The notes beneath the pieces were generated by a model that saw only the letters and a list, made by a program, of their open reading frames with translations, ran no database searches and was not told where the DNA came from. The position numbers and the translations under genes were made by a program. A stretch of DNA of 64,000 nt from assembly GCA_913056455.1 (NCBI GenBank), contig CAJXMJ010000002.1, positions 663,665 to 727,664 on the forward strand, in the 5' to 3' direction. Below, one piece after another: positions 10,510 through 38,160 of the stretch. Each line of letters begins with the position of its first letter. Positions within the stretch are counted from its first letter, which is position 1. The DNA comes from an uncultured Fodinibius sp. GTDB lineage: Bacteria; Bacteroidota; Rhodothermia; Balneolales; Balneolaceae.

Positions 10510-10543
10510 GATTTATCCATATTGAACTTTGAAAGAGGTGCAA

Positions 10544-19835: not shown

Positions 19836-21287
19836 CTAATCCAAGTAAGTCTCCCTATCCAGCCCATACTTATCCATCTTATTTTTAAGAGTATTTAACG
19901 CTATCCCCATTGCTTCGGCTGAATGGGTTTGGTTTCCATTGTATAAACTCATGACATAATCAATGTGTCTTTTTTCTATGTCCTCCAGTAGAAGCGATTT
20001 CTCGCTGTCATTTTCTTTAACAAAGCGTGGTATATCTTCTGCGGTTACTTTGTTTTCGGAGAATACATAGAGTCGCTCAATGAGATTTTCAAGCTCGCGG
20101 ATATTGCCCGGCCATCCATAACCCCGAAGTAGGCTTCGAGCTTCTTTTGATAGCTCAAGCTGAAAGTCCTTTTTAAGTGTCTTCTTTTTTTGTTCTATGA
20201 AGAAGCTAATAAGCTTTTCAATTTCGTCTTGACCTCTCTCCTGCAAACTGGGTAATTCCAATGGTGCTACATTTAGTCTATAAAAAAGATCCCATCGAAA
20301 CTGGTCTTCCTTACAGAGTTCTACTAAATCTTTATTACTGGCAGTTATTATTCTTACATCAACTTTTTCAGGTGTCCCGCCAACCGGCGTAATCTCTTTC
20401 TCTTCGAGAACTCTAAGTAATGCTTGCTGCATATATGATGATATATCTCCTATCTCATCTAAAAAGACTGTTCCTCCGTCTGCTTTTTTTAAGATCCCCT
20501 CTTTATCCTCATTAGCACCAGTAAAAGCTCCTTTCTTATGGCCGAAAAGTCTGGATTCTAAAAGATCATCATTAAAGGCCGAGCAGTTAATAGGAATATA
20601 TGGACTGTTATGTCTGATAGAGTTTTCATGAATAAAACGAGCAAGGTGTTCCTTACCAGTGCCAGTCTCTCCTTGAATTAAGGTAGTTACGTTATCGGTT
20701 TGGGCAACTTTATAGGCATTCCCATAAACAGGTTTGATAGAGTCTGTTATCAGATAATCTTCGGTATGTTCAAAGGTATCTGATGAGGTTTGCTTCTGTT
20801 TTAGAATAACTCCCTTGGGTATTTCTGTAGGCTCAACATCTATGAAGAGACGTTCAGGTTTATCGTCATCGGAAAAACGGGGAGACCTGAGTTGGATTAA
20901 GCGGGTTTGTAATCCAAGGGTTGTATGACAAATGTACCAGGCCAACTGCATCGCAGAGGTACCGGGAGAAAAGAAAATATCTATCTCATAATCTGAATAT
21001 TCTAAAAGAACTTGCTCGACTTTTGTTTTGATCTCTTTGAGATCAATAGGATCATCGATACTAATGATCTTTGCCTCGATATTATGTTTGGGGAAGTCGG
21101 CATCAAGTTTATTTTTAAGTTTGATGACGGGAAGGTTCTCATTTGATTCAGTTGCTAATAGGAGATGCTGATCATAGTCTTCCTGCTCAAAGAAGTATTG
21201 ATGGTAATTATATGTCGGCCCAGCTGTATTTACCTGGCCGTTATCGAAATCATTATTGTAGGCAAGCCAAGAGACGAGTATTCTCAT
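19836..21287 (-). CDS. RtcR-like sigma-54 activator with N-terminal CARF domain
   Basis: A 483-residue three-domain activator. Residues 1-155 form a Rossmann-like region with FFSPGTSAMQLAWYIC (105-120) and TRLIQLRSP. The spacing and the G-T-S/T-x-M motif follow the CARF domain of RtcR, the activator of RNA-repair genes, which senses RNA ends or oligonucleotides. Residues about 180-410 are an AAA+ sigma-54 interaction domain: Walker A GETGTGK (206-212), GAFTGA loop (253-258), Walker B FLDEIGD (275-281). Residues 440-475 form a Fis-type HTH. It is transcribed divergently from the methyltransferase-kinase operon across 136 bp that contain a sigma-54-like element, so that operon is the likely target. 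No rtcA/rtcB genes are nearby. The CARF call is from motif recognition; the ligand is unknown. Confidence 0.88.
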   Translation of the reverse strand: MRILVSWLAYNNDFDNGQVNTAGPTYNYHQYFFEQEDYDQHLLLATESNENLPVIKLKNKLDADFPKHNIEAKIISIDDPIDLKEIKTKVEQVLLEYSDYEIDIFFSPGTSAMQLAWYICHTTLGLQTRLIQLRSPRFSDDDKPERLFIDVEPTEIPKGVILKQKQTSSDTFEHTEDYLITDSIKPVYGNAYKVAQTDNVTTLIQGETGTGKEHLARFIHENSIRHNSPYIPINCSAFNDDLLESRLFGHKKGAFTGANEDKEGILKKADGGTVFLDEIGDISSYMQQALLRVLEEKEITPVGGTPEKVDVRIITASNKDLVELCKEDQFRWDLFYRLNVAPLELPSLQERGQDEIEKLISFFIEQKKKTLKKDFQLELSKEARSLLRGYGWPGNIRELENLIERLYVFSENKVTAEDIPRFVKENDSEKSLLLEDIEKRHIDYVMSLYNGNQTHSAEAMGIALNTLKNKMDKYGLDRETYLD

Positions 21288-21364
21288 ATCAATATTTGAT
21301 AACTATATTAAATTATTGATAGTCTAATATACATATTATGTGGATTTAATGTCTAATTAGGGGT

Positions 21365-21380
21365 TGGTATACCATTTGTA
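21365..21380 (+). promoter_or_regulatory. candidate sigma-54 promoter of the defence operon
   Basis: TGGTATACCATTTGTA matches the sigma-54 layout TGG-N8-TTG, with GG (21366-21367) and GT (21378-21379) separated by exactly 10 nt; the consensus is GG-N10-GC. Transcription would start near 21391, about 33 nt before the ATG at 21424. The -24 half overlaps the palindrome TGGTATACCA shared with the XRE promoter, so part of the match could instead reflect an operator. Confidence 0.5.
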
Positions 21381-21392
21381 CTAATTAGTACA
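21377..21392. promoter_or_regulatory. perfect 16-nt palindrome over the predicted start site
   Basis: TGTACTAATTAGTACA is fully self-complementary and covers the predicted -12 to +1 region. It is a candidate operator for a dimeric repressor or the response-regulator system. Short direct repeats GTCTAAT at 21322-21328 and 21351-21357 lie upstream and could be activator sites. Confidence 0.5.
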
Positions 21393-21423: not shown

Positions 21424-24186
21424 ATGACTTTAGCTGATGCAATTGGAAAGATACTTGATAAAAATGAGCGCCCAATGTCTATATCAGATTTGGTAGATGT
21501 AGGTATGTACTTTGAGCAGCTTGAGGTGGATGAGGTTACTGAAAATGACATCATAAAATGTGTGAAAGAAAATAATGATCAGTTTGAAATTCGAAATGGG
21601 TTTGTATCTATAGTTGGCCAAAAGTATTCGGAGGAAGATTTATCGGAGATCATTGAGAGATTGAGAGGTGAGTTTGGCAGTGAAGGATATGATTTATTTA
21701 TCATAATACTTTTCTATTTGAGATATAGTGCCACAAAGGAAGTGCTTGGGCTCAAGGGAGATAGGTACCATGTTGAATATGTCTTGGAGGAATTGAAGGT
21801 GTCAGATAATGGTCTAAATACTGATGACCTGATAGATCCGTTTAATGCAATTTTTCATGATTACTTTGGAAAGTCCCCTCAAGATTTTGCCGATAATGGA
21901 CCAATATTTGAGATTCACAAATTTGAAGTGGTTGGAGAGAAGAACCTACCCTTTAAATTTTATAACCTTTTATCTAATTACGATTGGTCGCTTTCTGCAG
22001 TTGATGTAGAAACCTTTGATGCTTTTATAGGCAGGATATTTAAGAACTTAGTTCATCGTACTGGTCATGGCGAACAGTACACACCAAATCAACTTTCAAG
22101 ATTTATAGCTCAGCTGTTTAACAATTCACAACATGAAAAGGTTTTAGATTTACAGACGAGTTATGGGGAGTTAACTGCTGAGTTTATTAAAAATAGTTCT
22201 TATCAACCCAGTATAACTCTCGGTCAAACAGACCCAAGGATACTCACTTTATCAGCTCTAAGAATGATATTACTTGGTGTTCGAGAGATAAACCTATTAG
22301 ATAATCCGATCTTTACCCAAAAAAGCCCGTATGATCTACTATTAACTGTACCACCGTGGGGGCGACTAAGCAAAAGCTTCTGGGAGAAAGCTTTAGAAGG
22401 TAGGGATGTGCCGGTTAGATCTTTGGAAGAACTTTATGTAAAAATTGGTTTTAGTAGGCTTCGAAAAACTGGAGAAGCATGTATTGTAGTACCAGAAGGT
22501 TTTTTGTTTAGGGATAGTTCTTTTTTAAAAAATTTCAGGGAAAAACTAATTAAAAGAAAAAATCTTAAAAGTGTTATCTACTTACCCAGTAGGACATTTG
22601 CTCCTTATACAGGTATCAAAGCTTCAATTCTTATATTATCGAAGTCAGAGAGTGAAGATTTACCACAGTTAATCAATGGACGGGAGTTAACAACTTCTAA
22701 TGGTAATTCCAATAATATTTTTGGAGAAATTCTGCGCATTTATAGAGAGAAAAATGATGAAGCCAGCATATCGAGATATGTCACATGGGATGAGATTGCA
22801 GATAATGAGTATAAACTTGGATTACAACGTTACTTTAATCCCAAAGTCTATTCAGAATCTTATTTAAGAGATCAGGATGAAGAGATCCTAAAGTTATCAG
22901 AAGTTTCAAGTAGACTTAAACTATCTCGAGAAGAAGTAGATGGAAGTTATCCATTGATTAATATGTCTAATTTAGCTGATGATCCTGTTGATCTTGTATT
23001 AGATATATCCAATCGTTCCACCAAATCAGATTACAATTCCAAGTTAATGGTTTTGGATCGGGATGCGGTATTGGTTGGTAAGGTGGGTAACAAACTAAAG
23101 CCAAGCTTGTTTAAATATGAAGGGAAACCTATATACGTAGGCAAAAATGTTATTGCATTGGAACCTAATGATGATTTGGATTCGGAGTACTTGATAAGTG
23201 AACTCAATTCGGAATTTGTTAGAGATCAAGTTTCGAAACTTCCTAAAGGATCGACTATACCTAATATTCGGATAAAGGATCTGATGAGCATATATGTCCG
23301 GATACCACAAAGTCTAAATAAACAGGCTTCATATTTTAAAGACTGGATAAAAGGGGTGGCTAAGTCAAGATTTGCAGAAAATGAAAATATTAGTTCTCGT
23401 TTAAAATTAGTTGAAAAAGATTTTCTTTCTGGTTTTAAACATGATTTTATGCAAATTCTTGGAAATGTATCTTCCGGTATTAATAACATTTCCAATTATA
23501 TTCAGGCATTAAATGAAAGGGATATAATTTCTTTGGAGGAACCTGTTGCACCACAGTTTCCGGGTGAAGAAGTAAAACCAGAAGAAACTATTAAAGGTAC
23601 GTTAGATCGAGTACAATATAATGTACAATCGGCCATCGACTTTTTGGAAGTGGAAATGGACAGAATTGTGAGTGGAGTTGATAAGGGAAGGTTTCAAGAA
23701 GTTGAATTATTACAGTTTTTAAAAGATTGGAAACAAGGAGTAAATATTGATGATACCTATTCAGTTCGAATAGAGAAAAGTGAAAATTGGCCATCTAAAG
23801 GACTTACTGTATCTCTTGTTCCTGCCTTGTTTAAAACGGTACTTACAAATCTTCTGGACAATGCTATCAAGCATGGGTTTACGGAAGACAAATCTGATTA
23901 TGAGTTTGTTTTGACTGTTGGCTTGATTGAAGAGAGGGATGGTTTTTTTGCAAGACTTTTAATAGCAAATAATGGAAAGCCGTTTCCAGATGGATATACT
24001 TTTGAAGATTATGTTACGGCAAGAACATCCGCTGGAAAAAATAGAGGTACCGGTTTGGGAGGGGCTCAAATAAAAAGGATAGTTGAAGAGCATGACGGCA
24101 TATTCCGAGAGCCTGAAAATCCTATGCCGGAAGAAATGTGGCCAGTACAATTTGAAATTTTAATGCCAATGATAGAAGAAGAATAA
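21424..24186 (+). CDS. degenerate N6-methyltransferase / target-recognition / histidine kinase fusion
   Basis: A 920-residue protein with an unusual architecture. Residues 1-70 resemble a HARE-type winged helix (LADAIGKILDKNERPMSISDL). Residues about 195-430 have the layout of an N6-adenine methyltransferase of the HsdM kind, but motif I reads VLDLQTSYGE (from residue 240) in place of D-P-x-x-G-S-G, and motif IV reads VPPW (309-312) where N/D-PP-Y/F is required. Residues about 470-640 look like an HsdS target-recognition region (LSEVSSRLKLSREEVDGSYPLINMSNL; GSTIPNIRIKDLMSI). Residues 655-920 are a kinase transmitter: GFKHDFMQIL with His673, N-box NLLDNAIKHG (N809/N813) and G-box GTGLGG (875-880). 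It should bind DNA without methylating it and signal by phosphotransfer. The next gene, overlapping by 1 nt, encodes the likely receiver. Confidence 0.85.
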   Translation: MTLADAIGKILDKNERPMSISDLVDVGMYFEQLEVDEVTENDIIKCVKENNDQFEIRNGFVSIVGQKYSEEDLSEIIERLRGEFGSEGYDLFIIILFYLRYSATKEVLGLKGDRYHVEYVLEELKVSDNGLNTDDLIDPFNAIFHDYFGKSPQDFADNGPIFEIHKFEVVGEKNLPFKFYNLLSNYDWSLSAVDVETFDAFIGRIFKNLVHRTGHGEQYTPNQLSRFIAQLFNNSQHEKVLDLQTSYGELTAEFIKNSSYQPSITLGQTDPRILTLSALRMILLGVREINLLDNPIFTQKSPYDLLLTVPPWGRLSKSFWEKALEGRDVPVRSLEELYVKIGFSRLRKTGEACIVVPEGFLFRDSSFLKNFREKLIKRKNLKSVIYLPSRTFAPYTGIKASILILSKSESEDLPQLINGRELTTSNGNSNNIFGEILRIYREKNDEASISRYVTWDEIADNEYKLGLQRYFNPKVYSESYLRDQDEEILKLSEVSSRLKLSREEVDGSYPLINMSNLADDPVDLVLDISNRSTKSDYNSKLMVLDRDAVLVGKVGNKLKPSLFKYEGKPIYVGKNVIALEPNDDLDSEYLISELNSEFVRDQVSKLPKGSTIPNIRIKDLMSIYVRIPQSLNKQASYFKDWIKGVAKSRFAENENISSRLKLVEKDFLSGFKHDFMQILGNVSSGINNISNYIQALNERDIISLEEPVAPQFPGEEVKPEETIKGTLDRVQYNVQSAIDFLEVEMDRIVSGVDKGRFQEVELLQFLKDWKQGVNIDDTYSVRIEKSENWPSKGLTVSLVPALFKTVLTNLLDNAIKHGFTEDKSDYEFVLTVGLIEERDGFFARLLIANNGKPFPDGYTFEDYVTARTSAGKNRGTGLGGAQIKRIVEEHDGIFREPENPMPEEMWPVQFEILMPMIEEE

Positions 24187-25124
24187 TGGATAGACCTATA
24201 AGTGTATTACTCTTGGATGATGAAGCGGACAAAATGATTGACTTTATTCAAGAAGCAAAAAGTGAGCGGGTACTGATAAAGGAGAAGCTGACAAATGCCC
24301 AGGAGGGTATTCAAGAAATTCGAGATAATTATGATAAATATGATGCTGTAATTTTAGATGCACTATTCTTTGAAAAACCAGATTCAGCAAAATTACGTGA
24401 TGCCGGTGCTCTTGCTGATACACTTGCTGAAATTAGCAGATTAGTTCATGTTGAAGAAAAGTATCTCCCCCATTGTATCTATACCGGACATTTTGATAAA
24501 GTAAATTCAGACACAGTTACGCGAAACAAAGAAGTGTTTGTTAAGGGCCGTGATCAGAAAGAGATGTTTACGTATCTGAAAGATGAGGTTTCAAAATCCG
24601 ATGATTATGCGATAAAAAATAAGTATAACGATGTGTTTGAAGTATTTGATCGAGGTTTTATGCCAACGGATAAGATGCCAGATTTAATAGAAATATTGGC
24701 ACAACTTGAAAGTGATGCTAAATATAATAGAGATGGGGCATTCACTCCTCTAAGAAAAATGTACGAAGCTTTTGTCAAAAGCTTTTATGATGAAGCATAC
24801 AGTAATGATAAGGATCAGGATCTGGTTCCTTTGGACCTTTTTTCTGGTGATTACGATGAACGAGTAAATATTAAAGGTTCCTGGTTCTATTTTTCAGGGA
24901 TGGAGATAAGAGATCAGAATGGTAACACAATTGTTGGTAAAAGGTCAGAAAAAGTTTTCCCAGAACACATAAAAAACTTAACAAGTGGATTTGTAGATTT
25001 GGTACAAACAGAATCACATGATTATCCTGAACCTGTAACAAAGTATGCTTATCGTTCAGCTGTTAATACTTTGTTAGAATTGTTATTGTGGTACAAAAAC
25101 TTTTGCATCAAAAATTTTAAATAG
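24186..25124 (+). CDS. receiver-domain protein with uncharacterised C-terminal output domain
   Basis: A 312-residue protein, coupled to the kinase fusion by the TAATG overlap. Residues 1-130 are a receiver domain: acidic pair D11-D12 in VLLLDDEADK, phospho-acceptor D58 in YDAVILDALFF, then a Thr in YTGHF and a Lys in FVKGRD at the conserved switch positions. Residues 150-312 are not a DNA-binding output of a known type. They look helical, with AFTPLRKMYEAFVKSFYDEAY and a final QTESHDYPEPVTKYAY...LLELLLWYKNF segment. Phosphorylation by His673 of the upstream protein is the simplest reading. The output may act on the restriction enzymes encoded next; hsdM starts 14 nt downstream. Confidence 0.8.
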   Translation: MDRPISVLLLDDEADKMIDFIQEAKSERVLIKEKLTNAQEGIQEIRDNYDKYDAVILDALFFEKPDSAKLRDAGALADTLAEISRLVHVEEKYLPHCIYTGHFDKVNSDTVTRNKEVFVKGRDQKEMFTYLKDEVSKSDDYAIKNKYNDVFEVFDRGFMPTDKMPDLIEILAQLESDAKYNRDGAFTPLRKMYEAFVKSFYDEAYSNDKDQDLVPLDLFSGDYDERVNIKGSWFYFSGMEIRDQNGNTIVGKRSEKVFPEHIKNLTSGFVDLVQTESHDYPEPVTKYAYRSAVNTLLELLLWYKNFCIKNFK

Positions 25125-25138
25125 AAATACGTTGGCGA

Positions 25139-27556
25139 ATGGCCATTAAAAAAAGCGACCTATACTCTTCCATCTGGAAAAGCTGCGATGAGCTGCGTGG
25201 CGGGATGGATGCCTCTCAGTACAAGGATTATGTGCTGACCATGCTCTTCATTAAATATGTATCCGATAAGTACGCGGGCCAGGAGGATGCCCTGCTGGTG
25301 ATTCCGGAGGGATCCAGCTTTGAGGATATGGTCAAGCTCAAGAACAAAAAGGATATTGGGGATAAGATTAATAAGCAGATCATTGCTCCGATTGCCGAAG
25401 CCAATGATCTGAAAGGAGTCATTGACCAGACCGATTTCAACGACGATGAGAAGCTGGGCAGCGGGAAGGAGAAGGTAGAGAGGCTCACTAACCTTGTGGG
25501 TATTTTCCAGAATGAAGCGCTGAATTTTGCGGATAATCGCGCCGGTGGCGATGACCTGCTGGGCGATGCCTACGAATATCTGATGCGCCACTTTGCTACT
25601 GAATCCGGGAAGAGTAAGGGACAGTTTTATACACCTGCGGAAGTGTCCCGTATCCTAGCCAAGGTGGTTGGAGTAGAAAAGGCCGACAGCCCGACTGACA
25701 CTGTATATGATCCGACCTGTGGAAGTGGATCCCTCCTGCTGAAAGTGGCAGATGAAGCGGATGTTGATATTACAATTTACGGGCAGGAGATGGACAATGC
25801 GACCTCGGCCCTGGCCAAGATGAATATGGTGCTGCATAACCAACCTACGGCGGTGCATAGTATTAAGCGAGGTAACACGTTGGCCGATCCCAAGTGGACG
25901 AATAACGGCGCGCTAAAACGCTTTGACTATGTGGTGGCTAATCCGCCTTTTTCCTATAAGGCGTGGACAAACGGGCTGGATCCGCAAAATGATTTTTACA
26001 ATCGCTTTGATGGGTTTGGGGTACCGCCCAAGAGTAATGGTGATTACGCTTTTCTGCTTCATATCGTGAAGTCGATGAAGAATACCGGCAAGGCAGCGGT
26101 TATTTTACCTCACGGAGTACTGTTTCGGGGCAATGCCGAGGAGGAAATTCGACGTAACCTGATTGAACGTGGCTATATCAAAGGTGTAATCGGGTTGCCG
26201 AGCAACCTGTTTTATGGGACTGGTATTCCGGCTTGTGTGTTGGTGCTGGACAAGGAACAGTCTGGAACGCGTGATGGCATCTTTATGATCGATGCCAGCG
26301 AGGGCTTTAAAAAAGATGGCAACAAGAATCGCCTGCGTGAGCGGGACATCCACAAGATCGTGGACTATTTCCGAAGCCAGAGTGAGGCCGATGGTTATGC
26401 TCGGATGGTTCCGTTTGAAGAAATTCGAGCCAACGATTACAACTTGAACATCCCGCGCTATATCGATACCACCGAAGATGAGGACATTCAGGATCTCCAG
26501 GCCCACCTGAAAGGCGGGATCCCTGAGCGGGATATTAACGAGATGGATCGTTTCTGGCAGGTGTATCCCACGCTGAAACAGGACCTGTTCGAACCGCTTC
26601 GGGAGGGGTATATTGCACTAACGGTGGATAAGGACGCTATTAACGATACTATCTTCGCCCATCCGGAGTTTCAGCAGTATCAACAGAAATTGGATAGGGT
26701 ATTTGAAGAATGGAAGAATGAGCATTACGAAGACTTGAAGGGGATCACCAAAGACACCAGTCCTACGGAATTTATAGAAGATCTTTCGGAAGATTTGCTC
26801 AAGGCCTATTCGGATACCACGCTCATTGACAAGTATGACGTCTACCAGCACCTGATGGATTACTGGGCCGATACCATGAAGGATGACGTCTATATGATTG
26901 TGGAGGACGGATGGAAGGCCACCCTGGAGCCGGTGCGGACCAGCACGGGCAAGATTAAAAAGGGACAATTTGAATGTGAGCTGATTCCCAAGTCATTGGT
27001 TATTGATCGTTACTTTCCCGAAGAGCAGGCTGAGATCGAGCAACTGAAACAGAAGCAGGAAACGGCTGACCAGACCATGGATGAGCTGGAGCAGGAACAT
27101 GCCCACGAAGACGGGCTGCTGGGTAACTGTCTCAGTGATGCGGGTAACGTGACTAAAACGAACCTAAAGAGCCGGTTGAAGGAGATTAAAAACAGTCCCG
27201 AAGATGCAAAGGAATACGAAGTAGTCCGGGAATACAAAGATGCCTACGATGCGGCTTCCAAGGCTAAAAAGAAGGTGAAGAAAGCCGAGAAGGCGCTGCG
27301 TAAGAAAGTGAACGAGAAATACCCCGAACTAACGCCTGATGAGGTAAAAACGCTGGTGGTGGACGACAAGTGGCTGCCCGACATATGCGGAAAGATCGAG
27401 GATGAGGTGGAGGCAGTTTCCCGAAGCCTTACCCAGCGTCTTAAAGAGCTGGCCAAACGTTATGATCGCGCCGTTACTGAAATTGATTCAGAAGTGGATA
27501 CGCTGGAAGAAAAAGTGAATGATCACTTGGAAACGATGGGGGTGGAATGGAATTAG
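25139..27556 (+). CDS. hsdM: type I restriction-modification methyltransferase subunit M
   Basis: An 805-residue HsdM. The N-terminal helical domain (DLYSSIWKSCDELRGGMDASQYKDYVL) is followed by an intact N6-adenine methylase: motif I DPTCGSGSLLL near residue 190 and motif IV NPPF with Asn near 268. Most HsdM proteins have about 500 residues; here a C-terminal extension of about 300 residues carries charged, coiled-coil-like helices (IEQLKQKQETADQTMDELEQEHAHEDG; KAKKKVKKAEKALRKKV). This long form is known from one class of type I systems. It acts with HsdS to methylate adenine in the target sequence. The gene is visibly more GC-rich than the two genes before it. It overlaps hsdS by 10 nt. Confidence 0.95.
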   Translation: MAIKKSDLYSSIWKSCDELRGGMDASQYKDYVLTMLFIKYVSDKYAGQEDALLVIPEGSSFEDMVKLKNKKDIGDKINKQIIAPIAEANDLKGVIDQTDFNDDEKLGSGKEKVERLTNLVGIFQNEALNFADNRAGGDDLLGDAYEYLMRHFATESGKSKGQFYTPAEVSRILAKVVGVEKADSPTDTVYDPTCGSGSLLLKVADEADVDITIYGQEMDNATSALAKMNMVLHNQPTAVHSIKRGNTLADPKWTNNGALKRFDYVVANPPFSYKAWTNGLDPQNDFYNRFDGFGVPPKSNGDYAFLLHIVKSMKNTGKAAVILPHGVLFRGNAEEEIRRNLIERGYIKGVIGLPSNLFYGTGIPACVLVLDKEQSGTRDGIFMIDASEGFKKDGNKNRLRERDIHKIVDYFRSQSEADGYARMVPFEEIRANDYNLNIPRYIDTTEDEDIQDLQAHLKGGIPERDINEMDRFWQVYPTLKQDLFEPLREGYIALTVDKDAINDTIFAHPEFQQYQQKLDRVFEEWKNEHYEDLKGITKDTSPTEFIEDLSEDLLKAYSDTTLIDKYDVYQHLMDYWADTMKDDVYMIVEDGWKATLEPVRTSTGKIKKGQFECELIPKSLVIDRYFPEEQAEIEQLKQKQETADQTMDELEQEHAHEDGLLGNCLSDAGNVTKTNLKSRLKEIKNSPEDAKEYEVVREYKDAYDAASKAKKKVKKAEKALRKKVNEKYPELTPDEVKTLVVDDKWLPDICGKIEDEVEAVSRSLTQRLKELAKRYDRAVTEIDSEVDTLEEKVNDHLETMGVEWN

Positions 27557-29433
27557 TTACTGAAAAGCCGTTAGCAAAAGTCATTCCCGAGGGATATAAA
27601 CGGACTGAAATAGGTATGGTTCCCGAGGATTGGAGGATTCTTAAACTGGAAGACTATACTACAAAAATTGGAAGCGGTATTACACCAAGAGGGGGTAGAA
27701 AAGTATACAAAAAGGAAGGTCGCCCTTTTGTAAGAAGCCAGAATATAGGTTGGGGATATTTAGATTTAGAAGATTTGGTTTTTATAGATGAAAGGACTCA
27801 TAAAAGTTTTGATGCAACCGAGTTATTGGAAGATGATGTTTTGTTAAACATAACAGGAGCTTCCATTGGTAGAAGTGCAATGGTTTCCGACAAGATAGTT
27901 GGCGGCAATGTAAATCAGCATGTGTGTATTATTAGAACCTTGAAAGATTACATTGAGCCGGAGTATCTAAATTATTTTTTGATCTCTGGTTCTGGTCAGG
28001 ATCAGGTTGCCAGTCATCAAGCTGGAGGTAACAGAGAAGGATTAAATTTTGGACAGATTGGAAAGTTCAAGATCCCCCTTCCACCAACCCTCGAAGAACA
28101 GCAAGCCATCGCCGAGGCTCTGAGCGATGTGGATGCCCTAATTGCCGAGCTTGACGTCTTGATCGAAAAGAAGCAGCAGGTCAAAAAAGGCGCCATGCAG
28201 CAGCTGCTTACCGGTAAAAAACGGTTGCCCGGGTTTGAAGGTGAGTGGGAGGAGAAAAGGTTGGGGAATGTGCTTTATGTACAAGGTGGATATGCCTTCA
28301 AAAGTACCAATTTCCAAAAGTTTGGTGTTCCTATTATCAGAATATCAAATATTCAAGATGGTGCGATAGACTTAGAAGAGTCAGTATTCTATTCTCCTGA
28401 TTCACATATTCCCAATGAATTTAAGATAGAAAAAGGTGAAGCATTAATTGCGATGTCTGGTGCTACCACTGGGAAGGTTGGTCTTTACAGTCATGATCAA
28501 GTAGCCTACCAAAATCAACGCGTTGGTAAGTTTGTCGTGAATGATTCAAGACATACGGATGATTCTTACATATTACATTTAGTCAGCTCTGACCATTTCA
28601 GAAAGGTTCTTTCAAAAGAATTAGAACAGGGTGCTCAACCTAACGTCAGTGCTAAACAATTGGAAGGCTTAGTATTTAATATGCCTAATGATGTTGAAGA
28701 ACAAAAAGCCATTGCCAATATCCTCGGCGACATAGATGCGGAGATCCAGGCTTTGCAGTCCAAACGGGTCAAGTACGAGCAAATAAAGCAGGGTATGATG
28801 GAGGAGCTGCTGACGGGAAAGACTAGATTGGTGGAAACTACTAAAGAGGAAGAGCAGGCTGGTTCTGCTGAGCGAAAACGAAGTTGGGCTTTTGAAGAGG
28901 CGGTAATTATTTCAACACTTATTGAACACTTTAGTACCGAGGACTTCTTTCCCAACCGTTTTCGATACGTAAAGTATTCGTATTTACTCAAGCGTTTTAA
29001 TAAAATGGGTGTAAATCGGTATCTCAAGAAGGCCGCAGGTCCCTATAATCCACAGACGCGCTACGGAGGACCTGAGCGAATTGCCAAAGAGAAAGGCTAT
29101 ATCACTCCAGTTTCATCAGGCGAATTTGAAGGGTTCAGGCCGGGTGATAACGTTGAAGAAGCAATTAATTATTTTAAGGACTGGTATGGAACAGACGTAT
29201 TGGATTGGCTTGAAGAATTTCGATATACAAAAAGTAATAGACTCGAACTTTTGGCTACCGTTGACAAAGCAAGAGTTGAATTAGAAGAAGATGGACGGGC
29301 TGTGACATTGTCTAACATTAAACAGGTTATTGAATCTGACCCTGATTGGAAACTCAAACTTAAACGGGAAATATTTTCGGATGAGAATATTGAAAGAGCT
29401 GTTAAAGAATCTTATAAACTATTTGGATCATAA
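27547..29433 (+). CDS. hsdS: type I restriction-modification specificity subunit S with C-terminal extension
   Basis: A 628-residue HsdS. Two target-recognition domains are clear: TRD1 about 15-195 (GYKRTEIGMVPEDWRILKL...) and TRD2 about 235-410 (EGEWEEKRLGNVLYVQGGYAF...). Each is followed by the conserved spacer helices (LEEQQAIAEALSDVDALIAELD; VEEQKAIANILGDIDAEIQAL). Residues about 440-628 are additional: FFPNRFRYVKYSYLLKRF, KAAGPYNPQTRYGGPERIAKEKGYI, and helical segments to the end. This part is absent from standard HsdS and its role is unknown. The ATG lies within the last codons of hsdM. The spacer DNA is GC-richer than the recognition domains, fitting TRD exchange. Confidence 0.93.
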   Translation: MELVTEKPLAKVIPEGYKRTEIGMVPEDWRILKLEDYTTKIGSGITPRGGRKVYKKEGRPFVRSQNIGWGYLDLEDLVFIDERTHKSFDATELLEDDVLLNITGASIGRSAMVSDKIVGGNVNQHVCIIRTLKDYIEPEYLNYFLISGSGQDQVASHQAGGNREGLNFGQIGKFKIPLPPTLEEQQAIAEALSDVDALIAELDVLIEKKQQVKKGAMQQLLTGKKRLPGFEGEWEEKRLGNVLYVQGGYAFKSTNFQKFGVPIIRISNIQDGAIDLEESVFYSPDSHIPNEFKIEKGEALIAMSGATTGKVGLYSHDQVAYQNQRVGKFVVNDSRHTDDSYILHLVSSDHFRKVLSKELEQGAQPNVSAKQLEGLVFNMPNDVEEQKAIANILGDIDAEIQALQSKRVKYEQIKQGMMEELLTGKTRLVETTKEEEQAGSAERKRSWAFEEAVIISTLIEHFSTEDFFPNRFRYVKYSYLLKRFNKMGVNRYLKKAAGPYNPQTRYGGPERIAKEKGYITPVSSGEFEGFRPGDNVEEAINYFKDWYGTDVLDWLEEFRYTKSNRLELLATVDKARVELEEDGRAVTLSNIKQVIESDPDWKLKLKREIFSDENIERAVKESYKLFGS

Positions 29434-29455
29434 TTAGAAGTAAAAGTTGGATTTT

Positions 29456-31279
29456 ATGGGTGCAAAATATTCAGAACGTGTTAGTGAACTATTTGAACAT
29501 TTTATTGGTCAATTCTTATTAGCTAAGAATAGCATTCTTACCCAGCACAAGAATGTATTAATAGAAGAGGTGATAGGTGATTGTTATGATAGATATGTCA
29601 AAGGAGGTATAGAGGGCGATCGAAGTTACAAAGAAAAGATCAACGAGCAGTTTGGTGATGCCGAATTTGAAACAAGATTGGTTTTTGCTCATGCAGAATG
29701 GTTATGGTCGTATGCAGTAAGCGATATTAATGAGGATACCAAGAAAGGGTATACCAGGTATCTCCTGAATTTAGAGGAAGACCAAAGTTTTGAGTTACAA
29801 GACGTGTATGCCATAGGATTTGGCAGTGGTGGAGAACGCCATACAAGAAATAAATATAGTGAGATTAAATTTTCCTTTCTGATTATCAAATACTTGTTTG
29901 AAAGGATCGAAAGTGGTGAACTTACAACAGTTGAAGAAGTAAAGGCCCGAGTAGAACAGATCTGTTTATTTAAAAAGTATGGTACAGAAAATGAAGCGCT
30001 TGATTTGAATGATCCATTTTTTAGCGATATAACCAGCGAGCAGCTGGCCATGCCGAATATTCTTCTTCACCTTGCTTATCCTGAAAAATATGAGCGTATT
30101 GCTTCGAATAAAGATAAACGATTGATCTACAATTCATTTTCTCCCTTGCTTGATGAGGAGGTTCGTGAAAATGAAAATCTAAATCTCGATGAGAAGCTCA
30201 AAATACTGCGAGATCTGCTTACTGATCAGACCGGAGATTATATAGATTTTTATAATCGTGACTTAAAAAAGGTTTGGAATTACAGCTTAATAGAAGATGA
30301 CTTTGATGAGATTCAAGGGTTAGAGTATAAAAAGGCGATCATCTTGTATGGTCCACCGGGTACCAGTAAGACTTATTCGGCCAAACAACTTGCTGAGACT
30401 TTGATAACCAAGTACTATTTAAAAGACAAAGGGAATGTTGCCTCCTTTTTTGATCAACTGGATAAAGACTACACCGATAAAAATTATCTAAAGGATCGGA
30501 TCCATCATTTGCAACTTCATCCCAGCTATACCTATGAGGATTTTGTTGCGGGTATGCAGTTGCGGGATGATGAGACAAAAGCAGTTGAAGGTAAATTATT
30601 TGATATATGTGAGAAAGCAAGAAAGGATAAGAGAAATGACGAACGGGATGATATTCCCCACGTTTTGATCCTGGATGAGATTAATCGAGTGGATCTGTCT
30701 CAGTTATTTGGAGAAGTGTTTTCGGCCTTGGAAAATCGTGAAGAGCCGATAGAGGTTAGCGTTCAAAATGAAGACGAATTTGAACTTACTATACCGCGTA
30801 ATTTATACGTAATAGGTACAATGAATGAGATTGATTTCTCATTGGAACGAATCGACTTTGCACTGCGGCGACGTTTCCTATGGTTTGAATACCCATTCCG
30901 GACAAATAGATTGAAAACAATCGTTAAAGATAAGTTTGATAGATTCAACGGTAGTCTTAAAGAGGATGAGTTGGATCGATTTACTCGAAATGCCAACCAA
31001 TTAAATAAGAAGCTGACTTCTTATGATGAGTTGGGAACCCAGTATCAGGTAGGGCATACTTTCTTCTCTGAAATTGCAGAAATATATGAGAGTTATTTAA
31101 AGCTACATGATAAATCATACCTGCAAAATAAAATTTACAAGAATCGAGGCGATGGACCTGCCCAAAAGCTTTGGGATTATTCGATAGAACCTATTATTGA
31201 TTCCTTTTTCGGTAGTATCAATACAGAACTGAAAAAAGATCGAATAGAAGAGTTAAGGAAGATATACTTTCAGGAGTAA
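29456..31279 (+). CDS. McrB-like AAA+ GTPase
   Basis: A 607-residue protein from ATG 29456; a TTG three codons upstream is the alternative. The N-terminal half (1-270) is an unrecognised, probably DNA- or substrate-binding region. The C-terminal half is an McrB-type AAA+ motor: Walker A GPPGTSKTY near residue 300, HPSYTYEDFVAG, Walker B LILDEINRVDLSQLFGE near 408, and GTMNEIDFSLERIDFALRRRF, the McrB signature loop with an altered MNxxD segment. McrB hydrolyses GTP and drives cleavage by McrC. It is placed 22 nt after hsdS and 3 nt before the McrC-like gene, so this restriction motor is built into the type I operon. Confidence 0.88.
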   Translation: MGAKYSERVSELFEHFIGQFLLAKNSILTQHKNVLIEEVIGDCYDRYVKGGIEGDRSYKEKINEQFGDAEFETRLVFAHAEWLWSYAVSDINEDTKKGYTRYLLNLEEDQSFELQDVYAIGFGSGGERHTRNKYSEIKFSFLIIKYLFERIESGELTTVEEVKARVEQICLFKKYGTENEALDLNDPFFSDITSEQLAMPNILLHLAYPEKYERIASNKDKRLIYNSFSPLLDEEVRENENLNLDEKLKILRDLLTDQTGDYIDFYNRDLKKVWNYSLIEDDFDEIQGLEYKKAIILYGPPGTSKTYSAKQLAETLITKYYLKDKGNVASFFDQLDKDYTDKNYLKDRIHHLQLHPSYTYEDFVAGMQLRDDETKAVEGKLFDICEKARKDKRNDERDDIPHVLILDEINRVDLSQLFGEVFSALENREEPIEVSVQNEDEFELTIPRNLYVIGTMNEIDFSLERIDFALRRRFLWFEYPFRTNRLKTIVKDKFDRFNGSLKEDELDRFTRNANQLNKKLTSYDELGTQYQVGHTFFSEIAEIYESYLKLHDKSYLQNKIYKNRGDGPAQKLWDYSIEPIIDSFFGSINTELKKDRIEELRKIYFQE

Positions 31280-31282
31280 CCA

Positions 31283-32596
31283 GTGGATACTACAACAATA
31301 ACAAAAATAGAAACTACGGACTGTACGGAGTTTCCAGAGGACTATGATGATATTATTCATGATTTTGTAACAAAATCGGACCAATTTGAGCGCTTTCGAT
31401 TTAGTGAAAGCCAAGATGATTTACCTATCGCCTTTTTTGACTATAAAGAAACCAATTGGAGAGCAGGAAGACTTGTAGGGGATGCACAATTTGAGTCAAA
31501 TGGGAAGGAATATTTACTGTCAATTAATCCCAGGTTTGGAGAAAAGCATCTATTTTGGATGTTGGAAGAGATATTCAATGTTCGTCTGATAGAATCTAAA
31601 CACACCTATGACAGATCGGAGTCAAGGCAACAATTGATACGTAAATTGATAGCTTTTCTTTGGTTGAACCTTCTGGCTAAAGGGAATCGTCACGGACTTC
31701 CTCGTATATTTCAAAGCAAATCTTATTACGGAAATAAAATAAGAGGACGAATTAATGTCAGAAAATCCATCATTCCGGTAAAAACAGAACAAAAAGTTGT
31801 AAGTACATACAGGCAAAAGAAATTTGATGAAAGAATAATACGATTGTTGAAACAGGCGTATGAGATTTTATTATCGGACTATCACTTGGGAGAAATCGTA
31901 CAGCCTCAAAACGCTAAATATGCACTGGACCAATTAAATCGAATTAAGCTGCCTTCACGGCGATTAACAGATCAAGGGTTTAAAAACATCAAAGTGAAGC
32001 GGATTTATCAGTCATTTAAGCCTGTACTTAATTTGTCCTGGGATATTATCAAAAACAACCGCGCCGGAAATCAACGTGAGAGTCAAAAGCAGTCGTTTAG
32101 CTATTTTATCGATATGGCCGAAATCTGGGAAATGTATCTCAGATCATTACTTGAAAAAAGACTTTCTATAGAAGGGTGGAGTTTGTTGGAACAAAAGGTT
32201 GTGACTTACTCGGACAAATTGTTTAAGCGTGGGTTGATACCTGACATCGTTTTTAAAAAGGGAAATCAGGTAATCGTACTTGATGCTAAATATAAACGAA
32301 TGGAATTTGATCCCAATGATATTGATAGATCAGACTTCTTTCAGATTCATACCTATATCCAATATTACCAGCAAAAATATGAAGTAATTGCTGGTGGGCT
32401 ATTGTATCCTTTTTCAGAAGAGTTTAATGAGAACAGGCAAATTCAAAGTTTGAGTGAGACCCTGTTTGGTGAAAGTTCAGGGGATACAAAATTCTTTATC
32501 GACGGTATAGATTTAGCAGACTGTGGAGAGGATGATTTTGATTTTGACAAAAAAGAGAAAAAGTTCTTGGATAGAATGGTTAGGCATATCGTGTAA
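31283..32596 (+). CDS. McrC-like PD-(D/E)XK endonuclease
   Basis: A 437-residue McrC-family nuclease partner of the preceding AAA+ protein. GTG 31283 is the start, preceded by AGGAG at 31272-31276. Residues about 60-250 contain the McrC architecture (YLLSINPRFGEKHLFWMLEEIF; GKIRGRINVRKSI; SFSYFIDMAEIWEMYLRSLLEKRL). The catalytic site is PDIVF near 318 followed by DAKYKRM near 333, the PD...D-x-K form. In the McrBC system this subunit is activated by the GTPase and cuts modified DNA. The last 17 nt overlap the end of the convergent metallo-beta-lactamase gene. Confidence 0.88.
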   Translation: MDTTTITKIETTDCTEFPEDYDDIIHDFVTKSDQFERFRFSESQDDLPIAFFDYKETNWRAGRLVGDAQFESNGKEYLLSINPRFGEKHLFWMLEEIFNVRLIESKHTYDRSESRQQLIRKLIAFLWLNLLAKGNRHGLPRIFQSKSYYGNKIRGRINVRKSIIPVKTEQKVVSTYRQKKFDERIIRLLKQAYEILLSDYHLGEIVQPQNAKYALDQLNRIKLPSRRLTDQGFKNIKVKRIYQSFKPVLNLSWDIIKNNRAGNQRESQKQSFSYFIDMAEIWEMYLRSLLEKRLSIEGWSLLEQKVVTYSDKLFKRGLIPDIVFKKGNQVIVLDAKYKRMEFDPNDIDRSDFFQIHTYIQYYQQKYEVIAGGLLYPFSEEFNENRQIQSLSETLFGESSGDTKFFIDGIDLADCGEDDFDFDKKEKKFLDRMVRHIV

Positions 32597-33761
32597 CTTG
32601 AATATCATCAAGATCGAGATTACCGAAGGCATTTTTGTCCTCCGTATGAATTGGTATAAGCTTGTCAGGATCAATATCTCGGATTAACTTTTCTAACGTT
32701 TCAATTTGGGCGTGTCCGCTGCAGTGGATGTGGTGAACATCTTCGTTTTTCCAGATGCCTTTAGTGTAACCGCTCCATTGTGAGTACACGAGCGTAATGT
32801 TATTCAAAAGATGATCATCAATAAGATGGGTCTCCACATATCTATTCGATTTAAGCACGTATTTTTTAGGGTTGTTCTGAATCCTACTCTTGGTAATCTT
32901 TGCCCGCGAAAATTGGTTGAGCTGCTCCTGTGCTATAGCCCGGGTATTGCTGTCGGCAGCAAACAAAATTCCGATATTGTTCCAAAAGTACTGGGGAATC
33001 TTGTCCGAGATAGGTTTCAGCTCCTGGAGTGTATATGCGGTGTAGGGATCAATAATCAGCGTACGGCCTGTTTTTAAACAGGCTTTGAATACACTAACCA
33101 GCCGATCAATATTCTGAGAGGAAAAAGTAATGAGGCAAAGGTTGGAGTTATCTTTCAAAAGGTCAGTAAGTTTATCTTGTACTTCTTGTTCTGTTTGTAT
33201 GCCTTTGTATTTTCTGGTCAGTAAGGTCCCCTCAAGGATAAACGAATCAATATTGTCAGAGAGCTGTTCTGGTAGTTTCTTGGTCATATATTGTTTTCGG
33301 CCGTGATCTCTTATATCTCCGGAATAGAGGATGTTTTTGTCACCGTCGGAAATCAGAAAAGCCCTGGAGTCAAAGCCCGAATGATCAATTGCAATGGGTG
33401 TTACGGAAATGCCTGCATTTGGAATCGTAATGTCTTCTTTATCCAGAGCAATGACGTTGGTGGGCTTGTACTGCGTATGACCAAATTTGTACGCGACTTC
33501 GATAATTTTTTTGCATCCATGGCTCATGTAGATCGGAGTATCATGTTTTAGCCAGGTTAACATTTCGTAGTGATCGGGATGTGGATGGGAGATGAAAATG
33601 GCGTTGGCCCGTTCGGCAATATTATTAAACGTTTCTGAGCTAAGTGAAGGGTTAGCATTTACTGGTATGCCGGCATCTAAAAGAATTGAGTGGTCACTGG
33701 ACTGAATTTCAACACAGTTCCCACCCAGCGTGTTGGCTCCCTGGTGGATAGCTATTTCCAT
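32580..33761 (-). CDS. metallo-beta-lactamase fold hydrolase, RNase J/beta-CASP-like
   Basis: A 393-residue protein with the metal site ISHPHPDHYE (H59-x-H61-x-D63-H64), a second ligand region LYSGDIRDHGR and a late HCSGHAQ...LIPIHTED. A middle segment (about 170-310, SFILEGTLL..., TGRTLIIDPYTAYTLQEL) fits a beta-CASP insertion. Enzymes of this group are RNA or DNA 5'-exonucleases or endonucleases. It is the last gene of a minus-strand trio, its ATG overlapping the end of the upstream nuclease gene by 10 nt, and it is convergent with the McrC-like gene. A nucleic-acid substrate is inferred from fold and context; a small-molecule substrate is not excluded. Confidence 0.82.
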   Translation of the reverse strand: MEIAIHQGANTLGGNCVEIQSSDHSILLDAGIPVNANPSLSSETFNNIAERANAIFISHPHPDHYEMLTWLKHDTPIYMSHGCKKIIEVAYKFGHTQYKPTNVIALDKEDITIPNAGISVTPIAIDHSGFDSRAFLISDGDKNILYSGDIRDHGRKQYMTKKLPEQLSDNIDSFILEGTLLTRKYKGIQTEQEVQDKLTDLLKDNSNLCLITFSSQNIDRLVSVFKACLKTGRTLIIDPYTAYTLQELKPISDKIPQYFWNNIGILFAADSNTRAIAQEQLNQFSRAKITKSRIQNNPKKYVLKSNRYVETHLIDDHLLNNITLVYSQWSGYTKGIWKNEDVHHIHCSGHAQIETLEKLIRDIDPDKLIPIHTEDKNAFGNLDLDDIQVTRYA

Positions 33762-34549
33762 GGATCGTTGTGCATATTAGTAGGATAGTGGTGATCAATA
33801 GTGAATACTCCAATATTTAGTTTTTTGAGCAGTTCGAAAAGGTTGTAATATCGGTCTCTGTTTTCTGGTCGTAATTCTCTTGGTATGCCTGCAATTTCGT
33901 TGGTAGCGTAAAGAACTGCGTAACGGACGGCAAACTTATTATTTTGATGCTTTATTAGGTTGTGTTTTTTATAGCGATGAGCAAGCACTTTTTTAAAATA
34001 GTTTCTAAGCTTAGAGTAATTGGTTAGGTGACCATAGGTCGCTATTTCCAATCCGGCCCGTAACAATGTTTCATATTTGTGATCTTTGGAGGCCCTTTTT
34101 AGTTCTATCAGATAAAGAACCTTATTCTTTCTGTTATAACTGATTAAGTCTATTTCACCATAACTTTTAGCATTATCTATGTTTTCTTCTCGCTCACTAA
34201 GTGGTACTTCGTAGTCTAATATTCTACCCAATTTTGTTACTTTATGACCATATAGAGATTTAGCAAAAATCTTTTCTACACTGCTATTATTAAACTTTAT
34301 GTCTACTTTATGATGACTACGTTCAAAATAGTCGTTTCGTTTGCTTATTCCCTTTAATGGTTCAAGTATTTCTTGGCCTGTGTTAAGTTCAAGAAGCCTT
34401 TTTGCTATATAATCTGTATAGGGTTGTTCGGTAGTTCCTCGGGGACCCGTTCTATTAACAATTTCCTCATCATAAAAATCAATATAGTTTTTTGAACTTG
34501 TTAATTGTTCTATTTGTCTATCAATCTTTGAATAATAGTCTTTACTCAT
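33752..34549 (-). CDS. PD-(D/E)XK nuclease-like protein
   Basis: A 265-residue protein. SYGEIDLISYNRKNKVLYLIELKRA gives the nuclease core: E132 and D134, then E149-x-K151 on the next strand, the standard PD-(D/E)XK geometry. A further helix (YETLLRAGLEIATYGHL) may supply the usual Gln/Glu helix of the fold. The N-terminal 110 residues are charged and not recognised. It is the middle gene of the antisense trio, 9 nt after the 109-residue protein and overlapping the metallo-hydrolase. A DNA- or RNA-cleaving role in defence is likely but inferred. Confidence 0.75.
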   Translation of the reverse strand: MSKDYYSKIDRQIEQLTSSKNYIDFYDEEIVNRTGPRGTTEQPYTDYIAKRLLELNTGQEILEPLKGISKRNDYFERSHHKVDIKFNNSSVEKIFAKSLYGHKVTKLGRILDYEVPLSEREENIDNAKSYGEIDLISYNRKNKVLYLIELKRASKDHKYETLLRAGLEIATYGHLTNYSKLRNYFKKVLAHRYKKHNLIKHQNNKFAVRYAVLYATNEIAGIPRELRPENRDRYYNLFELLKKLNIGVFTIDHHYPTNMHNDPWK

Positions 34550-38100: not shown

Positions 38101-38160
38101 CCAGAGAGTTTTAGCATACAGGAAGTCTTAGATGTAATTAAGAACCAGGATGAATACTGA
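35134..38160 (+). CDS. hsdR: type I restriction enzyme R subunit
   Basis: A 1008-residue HsdR, the translocating and cleaving subunit. The N-terminal nuclease site is RPDIVLYVNG...GILELKRS near residues 132-151 (PD...E-x-K). The SF2 motor has Walker A QGSGKSL near 275, DECHR near 386 and FVGFTGTPL near 411, then motif VI around QAICRVNRLHEDKEYGYVVDY. The C-terminal helical domain of about 300 residues is expected to bind the methylase. It is separated from hsdM and hsdS by the McrBC-like genes and the antisense cassette and has its own upstream region, so restriction and modification subunits need not be expressed together. It overlaps the next gene by 11 nt. The GC level is like hsdM. Confidence 0.95.
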   Translation: MSDVGQIERNTQDRLVKLFQKRLDYDYLGDWEEREDNSNVEVELLRRFLNRQGYDKPLVEKAIFELGRAAQSQADSLYNTNKEVYRLLRYGTEVRASQGENKQTVHFIDWEDPQNNDFGIAEEVSVRGQHDKRPDIVLYVNGIAVGILELKRSKVSVNKGIRQNLDNQKPEFIKSFFNTMQLVMAGNDTAGLRYGTVETPEKYYQKWKEDTDEEFNYLLDKHVVQLCNKERLIEVIHNFVLFDAGTKKICRPHQYFGVKASQENVRKREDGIIWHTQGSGKSLTMVWLAQWIREHVDDSRVLVITDRIELDKQIVRVFDDAGESMERAESGSDLIDKLNKNEYPLISSLVHKFGTKDEGEYESYIKEIRQNLPKDFKAKGDIYVFVDECHRTQSGKLHQAMKTILPDAMFVGFTGTPLLKNDKKTSLEVFGPYIHTYKFDEAVEDNVVLDLRYEARDIDQKITDQQSIDEWFEAETKGLNDVAREELMKRWGTMKKLLSSKDRLQKIVYDVAKDFNTKNRLCTGQGNALLVANSIYDACKFYELFQDTYLADHCAIITSYNPSIDKIKGESTGAGETEELHKYKVYEDMLDGKSTEQFEEEVKKKFVNEPAQMKLLIVVDKLLTGFDAPPATYLYIDKPMQDHGLFQAICRVNRLHEDKEYGYVVDYKDLFKSLEQSIADYTSEAFEGYDKDDVEGLLKDRYEQARNKLDEALDAVEALCEPIHPKTTKEFIRYFCGDPENEEDLQETEEQRTTLYKLTSSLIRAYTDIANEMLRAGYTKQEAKEIKDRVQFYSDVGDEVKHASGDYIDLKTYEPGMRQLIDMYISAEPSEKISALDDLSLIDLVVQRGEDAVNELPEGIRNDPEAVAETIENNIRKRIIEERPTNPKYFEKMSDILEELILKRKQQALDYKKYLQELVELTKKVKQLDGQDYPEQIKTSGQKALYDNLNNDGELAKVVDKTVKYTAKDGWRDNKIKEREVKRAIKRKLPESFSIQEVLDVIKNQDEY

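Follow-up and report, generated by a model that had tools for sequence, protein, structure and literature searches.

A Degenerate Restriction Methylase Fused to a Histidine Kinase in Bacterial Defence Operons

The MTHK Gene and Its Operon

The 64,000-nucleotide stretch of DNA analysed here (the window) derives from an uncultured Fodinibius sp., whose assembly (GCA_913056455.1) comprises 3,281,480 bases in 7 contigs. It carries a gene (21424..24186, + strand, ATG start, 920 aa) that joins a degenerate adenine methylase, a region resembling a target recognition domain (TRD) and a histidine kinase. The family of such pseudo-methylase/TRD/histidine-kinase fusions is named MTHK in this study. An original prediction, made from the sequence alone, had already proposed the methylase-kinase fusion, and it was confirmed by Pfam matches above the curated cut-offs for N6_Mtase (aa 214-476, E 7e-27), Methylase_S (aa 497-634, E 9e-6, 26.4 bits against a cut-off of 22) and HATPase_c (aa 802-894, E 5e-7).

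The protein begins with an N-terminal segment (aa 1-75, 21424..21648, +), which is 23% identical to the N-terminus of the homologue from locus L018. Next comes the N6_Mtase-type domain (aa 201-476, 22024..22851, +), recognised by Pfam and by motif alignment, which reads VLDLQTSYGE at motif I (aa 240-249, 22141..22170, +) and VPPW at motif IV (aa 309-312, 22348..22359, +), both at the predicted places; with DLQTSYG and VPPW, it lacks the motifs of a functional HsdM. A single HsdS-type TRD-like domain, conserved in the family, follows (aa 485-640, 22876..23343, +), as suggested by the Methylase_S match and by fold matches. The transmitter, complete by sequence, consists of His673, the predicted phosphorylation site (23440..23442, +), and the ATP-binding (CA) domain (aa 791-918, 23794..24177, +), recognised by Pfam and fold, in which N809, N813, NxGxPxP and GTGLGG (875-880) are all in place.

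Downstream on the same strand lie a receiver-domain protein (24186..25124, +, 312 aa), HsdM (25139..27556, +, found by homology search), HsdS (27547..29433, +, 628 aa, two Methylase_S stretches by Pfam) and HsdR (35134..38160, +, homologous to a Myroides plasmid gene annotated as type I subunit R), so that all three components of a type I restriction-modification (RM) system are present. The neighbouring HsdM was also expected to keep both methylase motifs, and the motif alignment reads DPTCGSG and NPPF there. Since the Pfam domains exceed their cut-offs, the residues are in place and the HsdM motifs are intact, a chance reading can be dismissed for both the domains and the motif loss of MTHK. 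The original prediction mentioned neither the adjacent receiver-domain protein nor the divergent RtcR-type regulator (19836..21287, -).

Loss of Methylase Motifs in the MTHK Family

The family set comprises 30 proteins, the window's included, two of which (L067 and L144) end at contig edges. All 30 were aligned with 18 HsdMs, each from a different one of these loci, and a strict rule was applied, with motif I as D...G[STA] plus motif IV as [ND]PP[FYW]. Both motifs were present in none of the 30 MTHK proteins, whereas all 18 HsdM controls kept them, which rules out MTHK as an intact methylase. This alignment had been set beforehand as a refuting test of the original prediction, and the count of 0/30 under the strict rule upheld it, with a reservation for L017, L067 and L141, which combine NPP[FY] with a motif I carrying N for D. 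Judging from the alignment, motif loss is a family trait and not a peculiarity of the window, and catalysis looks to have been lost.

Taken singly, motif I is retained by two proteins (L130 and L146) and motif IV by four (L011, L017, L067 and L141). When motif I is loosened to D...G.G, L128 and L145 join, where motif IV is still absent. The proteins closest to an intact enzyme are L130 and L146 (a good motif I, with DLP in place of motif IV), L128 (DPTMGVG/EPPF), L145 (DPVAGIG/DLPA), and L017, L067 and L141 (NPP[FY] plus NPFAGLA). The sequence NPFAG at motif I is common to 13 of the 30 homologues, and this group may still bind S-adenosylmethionine (SAM). In the window branch, motif I is unrecognisable (DLQTSYG, DLHTSYA), and the segment is unaligned in L012, L013 and L131. 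The N6_Mtase domain is retained in diverged members, as eight of ten rechecked proteins match it over more than 180 residues, and L012 and L013 over about 145.

Structure modelling had been suggested as a check of the original prediction. In the AlphaFold model of MTHK, the CA domain was recognisable (Z 16.2, 156 residues, root-mean-square deviation (rmsd) 3.2), as was the TRD (Z 15.5 to 7vru_C of the PacII M1M2S complex, 161 residues, rmsd 4.2). The best Foldseek match was 7eew_A (E 9e-17), an M protein whose structure was determined together with the DNA mimic Ocr, although the methylase part of the model is poor. The TRD model matched type I S chains at Z 14.3-15.5, including HsdS 3okg (Z 14.3); other matches of the TRD were 8vsq and 8vsr, named Esub1, the latter titled as a co-crystal with Prx. 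VIA-align of the methylase part returned no HsdM rows, which is not evidence, given the poor model there.

Kinase Transmitter and Receiver Protein

The H-box histidine equivalent to His673 is present in 29/29 readable MTHK proteins, N813 in 28/28, N809 in 24/28, and both of the later G2-motif glycines in 28/28; the window protein itself carries the H-box, N-box and G-box of a histidine kinase. The H-x4-P context, which is usual in HisKA, was found in 9 of the 24 aligned proteins and not in the window protein.

In all 28 loci whose sequence continues beyond MTHK, the gene directly after it encodes a receiver-domain protein; 26 were recognised by sequence search, the window query included, and L130 and L146 by alignment. 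Because of this constant position, a phosphorylation output of MTHK is likely, and the receiver protein is its predicted phosphorylation partner. In the window protein, the acidic residues D11 and D12, D58 and K120 are identified by alignment and REC fold, and D58 and K120 are invariant in 27/27 aligned proteins; the L019 receiver was left out of this alignment because it ends at a contig edge. The window receiver was modelled at pLDDT 79, and the best match of the model is PorX, with a REC fold (Z 14.0, 117 residues, rmsd 2.4).

The C-terminal domain of the receiver protein is helical in the AlphaFold model, and R190 and H278 are kept in at least 90% of the 27 relatives; a HEPN-like reading of the R190...SH motif is not claimed. 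The window protein matched no Pfam family up to E 10, fold searches with it matched the receiver part instead of the C-terminal domain, and a PDB profile search gave one weak match outside the receiver part (7jrq, E 0.45). Among the 27 receiver proteins, two carry Schlafen AlbA_2 (E 4e-17) and two have an S1/cold-shock-domain-like match (E 2e-4), while the window receiver has neither. These few relatives give hints of an RNA-related output. The Schlafen AlbA_2-type output parts were read from the alignment at L130:2438-3382 and L146:8260-9189.

The TRD-Like Domain Compared with HsdS

The TRD-like segments of 24 MTHK proteins were compared with 17 HsdS proteins, both being available at 16 loci. 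Each segment matched 17-23 of the other 23 (BLAST, E <1). A profile built from the 24 segments scored its own members at 132-204 bits, which is high by construction, and matched 13 of the 17 HsdS proteins at 74.5 bits at most. The HsdS of the same locus was the best HsdS match in only one of 16 loci (L020), and the other own-locus matches had weak E-values. Between the window and L011, the TRD-like domain is about 81% (80-82%) identical while the HsdS recognition domains are 21-30% identical; the TRD therefore does not follow the operon's target site. A TRD that copies the operon's own HsdS is ruled out on these two counts.

MTHK has a Methylase_S-type TRD fold by Pfam and by its match to 7vru_C, yet it carries one Methylase_S stretch and not the two diversified TRDs of an HsdS. 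The original prediction had described a target-recognition-like region here without noting that it is a single unit. On the basis of the sequence comparison, the TRD-like domains form one family, apart from the neighbouring HsdS, and the domain appears not to read the operon's own target. The original interpretation is supported only in part: the further idea of a sequence-specific, methylation-aware sensor was not borne out, because the TRD does not follow its own HsdS and because the module also occurs beside Druantia III. DNA binding by MTHK as such may still take place.

Distribution and Genomic Contexts

MTHK matches were counted in genomes sampled by phylum, order, family and genus, samples which overlap. 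A match at E 1e-40 was found in 6 of 296 genomes of the phylum. A seven-row profile was used for the other samples, with only matches that reach the kinase part being counted, and these occurred in 8 of 92 genomes sampled from the same family, 8 of 346 from a single order and 5 of 299 from a single genus, where a sixth genome's match ends at a contig edge. The remaining 49 matching genomes in the order sample match the methylase part, and one of them, G595, has a second match broken by three stops. A scan of genome contigs gave at least 48 loci, 20 of them with the reading frame listed; five of these are MTHK (L016-L020), and for the other 15 the judgement used only frame length and first residues. 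Among 72,556 plasmid records, three from Myroides carry MTHK at E 1e-20, and eight of 50,697 phage records match the L010 protein (E 1e-8), all within the methylase part. The IMG/VR contig L064 (IMGVR_UViG_2744054598_000002), classed as viral, carries the kinase-receiver pair.

The context was surveyed by phmmer with one WYL query and one RtcR query. A WYL-type regulator adjoins MTHK in 19/30 loci (one gene apart in L128) and an RtcR-type regulator in three (the window, L011 and L134); neither type was recognised in eight of the 30, among which L130 starts near a contig end. Type I HsdM lies 1-4 genes downstream of MTHK in 17/30 loci. At L145:8215-17559, the transcription order is R-like gene, HsdM-HsdS fusion (1033 aa), MTHK and receiver, so that the module trails the restriction genes, and L126 has an HsdR-like gene upstream of MTHK and HsdM fragments about 8 kb away.

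Other defence genes take the same place elsewhere. In L142, DruH and DruE of Druantia III (PADLOC) come after the MTHK-receiver pair, as do their homologues in L143. Druantia III is a non-methylating defence system. It stands directly after the kinase-receiver pair at L142:11498-19998 and L143:1-8155. MTHK precedes McrB/McrC-like genes in L130 and AAA_15, PLD-like and UvrD-type genes in L012, and GmrSD-type genes are carried by L011, L015 and L127. The contigs of L019, L064, L067 and L144 end too soon for a context reading.

Divergence of the Pseudo-Methylase Between Close Relatives

The window and L011 belong to the same genus, and their operons are similar in HsdM (95.5% identity), HsdR (94%), receiver (95%) and RtcR (91%), with MTHK at 77% and HsdS at 46%. 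In 40-residue blocks of MTHK, aa 281-480 are most variable (32-62%), aa 201-280 stand at 62-67% and the TRD-like part at 74-85%, while the N-terminal 80 residues (97%) and the kinase (92-97%) are nearly constant. Nonsynonymous (dN) and synonymous (dS) divergence were compared as well. In the pseudo-methylase, two segments gave dN 0.22 and 0.41 with dS 0.92 and 0.83, close to the dS of HsdM, and the other two dN 0.34-0.45 with dS 1.4 or saturated; the TRD-like part gave dN 0.09-0.12 and dS 0.7-0.9, the HsdM methylase domain dN 0.01 and dS 0.78, HsdR dN 0.03 and dS 0.89, and the HsdS TRDs dN 0.8-1.1 with dS 1.5 or saturated. In the kinase part and in the receiver domain dS is low (0.1-0.2), which indicates that the operon is a mosaic.

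Counted as identical/different residues, aa 281-480 stand at 101/89 against 308/7 in HsdM (p 2e-36) and 129/30 in the TRD (p 4e-8). A second pair, L132/L133, agrees: aa 161-280 (corresponding to window 259-381) stand at 62/58 against 286/35 in HsdM (p 4e-16), with the TRD at 131/20 and HsdS 42% identical. The fast-changing part of MTHK is thus the dead methylase in two of three close pairs. In another comparison, L010/L125, HsdM is 96% identical while MTHK and the receiver are each 30% and WYL 46% identical, showing that the signalling genes are swapped independently of HsdM.

Proposed Function and Alternative Explanations

MTHK is very probably the sensor of a two-component module of defence operons, with the non-catalytic methylase as its input. 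More tentatively, we infer that it is a decoy which detects phage anti-restriction proteins, the reading that we favour, though at less than even odds. Three observations lead to it: the dead copy changes while neither the DNA-reading domain nor the live enzyme does (in two of three close pairs), anti-restriction proteins are known to target M proteins, and the module also precedes Druantia III. The module would be cytoplasmic and would act in antiviral operons. The kinase dimer would bring together two pseudo-M/TRD arms resembling the M2S core of a type I enzyme, and a phage product, most likely a DNA mimic or another anti-restriction protein directed against M.S complexes, would bind this M2S-like face. 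Ligand binding would then shift the helices leading into the H-box, His673 would be autophosphorylated, and the phosphate would move to Asp58 of the receiver, whose helical output domain would trigger a back-up response. That response is possibly RNA-directed, since a few receiver relatives carry S1/cold-shock-like or Schlafen-type domains. A phage disabling the restriction enzyme would in this way trip an alarm via the decoy.

If so, two-component signalling, which normally serves environmental cues, would monitor antiviral enzymes inside the cell, with a dead enzyme copy as bait, and the question arises whether a phage that neutralises restriction sets off a phosphorelay. Recognition of the target site (by HsdS) would also be set apart from recognition of the attack (by the dead methylase), two functions usually lumped together. 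The order of pseudo-HsdM, TRD and kinase, then receiver protein, can serve as a marker for finding regulated defence islands. It is doubtful, but conceivable, that these modules represent a whole class of immune sensors, in which a dead restriction methylase is an integrated decoy, linked by a His-Asp phosphorelay to RNA-directed back-up defence and interchangeable between type I RM, Druantia III and possibly McrBC islands.

Several points weigh against the decoy reading. L018, L128 and L146 have no recognised defence system alongside MTHK. The MTHK model is weak overall (mean pLDDT 64, pTM 0.33), and the conserved TRD-like domain fits DNA binding as well as protein binding. When N is allowed for D in motif I, L017, L067 and L141 pass both motifs, so SAM binding might persist in some relatives such as these. 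Regarding divergence, aa 81-160, outside the methylase domain, are also variable between the window and L011 (52-70%), and the compared segments were picked after seeing the profile, which makes the Fisher p values above descriptive. In L142/L143 it is DruH that stands out, not the pseudo-methylase. Of the 153 pairwise comparisons among 18 loci, 113 show a lower identity in the pseudo-methylase than in HsdM and 40 do not. Finally, dN/dS is below 1 in every segment with measurable dS, and relaxed constraint can therefore explain the divergence without an arms race.

Among the alternatives, a DNA sensor, which modifies the original prediction and in which the pseudo-methylase/TRD part signals on a fixed sequence or on a general feature such as unmethylated or modified adenine, independent of the operon's HsdS site, is rather unlikely. 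The TRD-like fold and a mostly conserved basic residue at K559 (not in L019 and L134) speak for it, as does the HARE-HTH domain, a putative modified-DNA binder, which Pfam recognises at the N-terminus of L018 and L145; unlike L018, the window MTHK has no Pfam match to HARE-HTH. However, the specificity of the operon's HsdS is not mirrored by the TRD-like domain, it is the pseudo-methylase that varies and not the TRD, and a position before Druantia III is ill-suited to a reader of RM methylation.

It is also unlikely that MTHK replaces an HsdM subunit in a complex with HsdS/HsdR and signals the assembly or inhibition of the restriction enzyme. The architecture of MTHK does mimic M plus half an S subunit, and type I HsdM is downstream in the 17 loci mentioned above. 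Nevertheless, the module and the RM genes are exchanged independently, as in L010/L125, and the same MTHK family also precedes Druantia III.

A sensor of SAM or a nucleotide, whose pseudo-methylase would bind SAM and report its depletion by phage SAM-degrading enzymes, draws on the 13 homologues with NPFAG at motif I, but it is improbable: motif I is gone in the window branch, including the unaligned L012, L013 and L131, so SAM sensing cannot be the mechanism shared by all MTHK. Least probable of all is a decaying fusion, in which the kinase alone functions with an unrelated input and the methylase is a relic under relaxed constraint, as its higher dN and freely varying motif residues might suggest, because the frames are open and the N6_Mtase domain is retained even in highly diverged MTHK.

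Comparison with Known Systems

No description of this methylase-kinase fusion was found in the open-access full-text literature, as judged from titles and abstract starts. From its sequence, MTHK would be an unusual input domain on an otherwise known kind of two-component gene pair. Like type I HsdM/HsdS, beside which it lies, MTHK has an N6_Mtase followed by a Methylase_S-type domain, but the motif pair is lost in 30/30 under the strict rule, the one TRD is undiversified, and a histidine kinase is fused.

The closest published gene pair appears to be HEF_HK/Response_reg_2 (PF19191/PF19192), a soluble kinase-like and receiver-like pair linked to RM, like MTHK and its receiver (PMC8011034). According to the excerpts available from that report, the pair is linked especially to type II RM and C5-methylases, and no methylase-kinase fusion is described in them. 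It is a different family by sequence: three MTHK and three receivers gave no match to PF19191 or PF19192 up to E 10 in a search that drops most weak matches.

Beside BREX and BREX-related systems, a fusion of a Schlafen RNase with a minimal histidine kinase and a winged helix-turn-helix has been reported, and inactive nuclease domains were proposed as decoys for phage inhibitors (PMC12839542). It shares with MTHK the kinase domain in a defence island and the idea of a dead-copy decoy; however, its kinase is joined to an RNase and not to a dead methylase, and the excerpted text names no receiver partner. In PARIS, PrrC/EcoprrI and Ronin, phage anti-restriction proteins trigger a second defence, and the sensor proposed for Ronin consists of the modification subunits of a system resembling RM (PMC12409349). 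M proteins are targets of anti-restriction proteins according to the same text and to the title of 7eew. As far as the passages from PMC12409349 go, these systems act via a nuclease or toxin, with no His-Asp relay described; a trigger common to them and MTHK would be only an analogy that we infer.

Two-component genes have been reported in methyltransferase-associated McrBC operons and announced for a later paper (PMC11090510). The portion of this report at hand covers the NxD GTPase branch and names no kinase-methylase fusion. The McrB-like protein of the window reads TMNEID, which is taken as NxxD, another branch. For Druantia III, part of a preprint presents DruH as the likely sensor and does not name a two-component partner by those terms (PMC13192584); with DruH in this role, L142 and L143 would have two sensors. 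In L142/L143, DruH is 46-75% identical per segment and more divergent than DruE (72-78%). MTHK shows weak similarity of its methylase and specificity parts to MAD2 and MAD5 of MADS, and membership was rejected at 25.4 bits against a cut-off of 720 (MAD2) and 19.7 against 400 (MAD5).

Other Genes and Features of the Window

Upstream of MTHK, a divergent gene (19836..21287, -) encodes a CARF-AAA-HTH sigma-54 activator of RtcR_PspF2 type (PADLOC PDLC01995, E 5e-134; Pfam Sigma54_activat). A candidate sigma-54 promoter with two mismatches, a weak pattern match, lies in between (21365..21380, +) and is partly conserved in L134. The pattern with up to two mismatches occurs 82 times in the window against 70 expected, a number reached by 7 of 100 shuffles, so that the site is only suggestive. 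AT-rich palindrome-like repeats (such as TATCAATATTTGATA) were observed at 21285-21385, between the RtcR-type gene and MTHK, when the upstream regions of the window, L011 and L134 were compared; they are partly kept in L134 and are candidate activator sites.

Between HsdS and HsdR, the window encodes the McrB-like AAA protein (AAA_5, 29447..31279, +), a McrC-like protein (PF10117, 31283..32596, +) and a metallo-beta-lactamase-fold protein with an RMMBL domain (32580..33761, -), all identified by Pfam, and a 265-aa open reading frame (33752..34549, -). The cargo of this interval differs between relatives, with McrBC and the metallo-beta-lactamase-fold gene in the window (29447-34549) and two GmrSD-type genes in L011:4977-8712. 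HsdS residues 431-628 had no Pfam match and are 54% identical in L011. The gene after HsdR (38150..38857, +) encodes a putative YgjP/M48-type metallopeptidase-like protein. On the other side of the operon, two reading frames (10529-10984 and 10994-11725, +) resemble, on inspection by eye, a single phage-type integrase split in two and possibly mark an island edge, and a tyrosine-recombinase-like reading frame lies at 17575-18189 (-).

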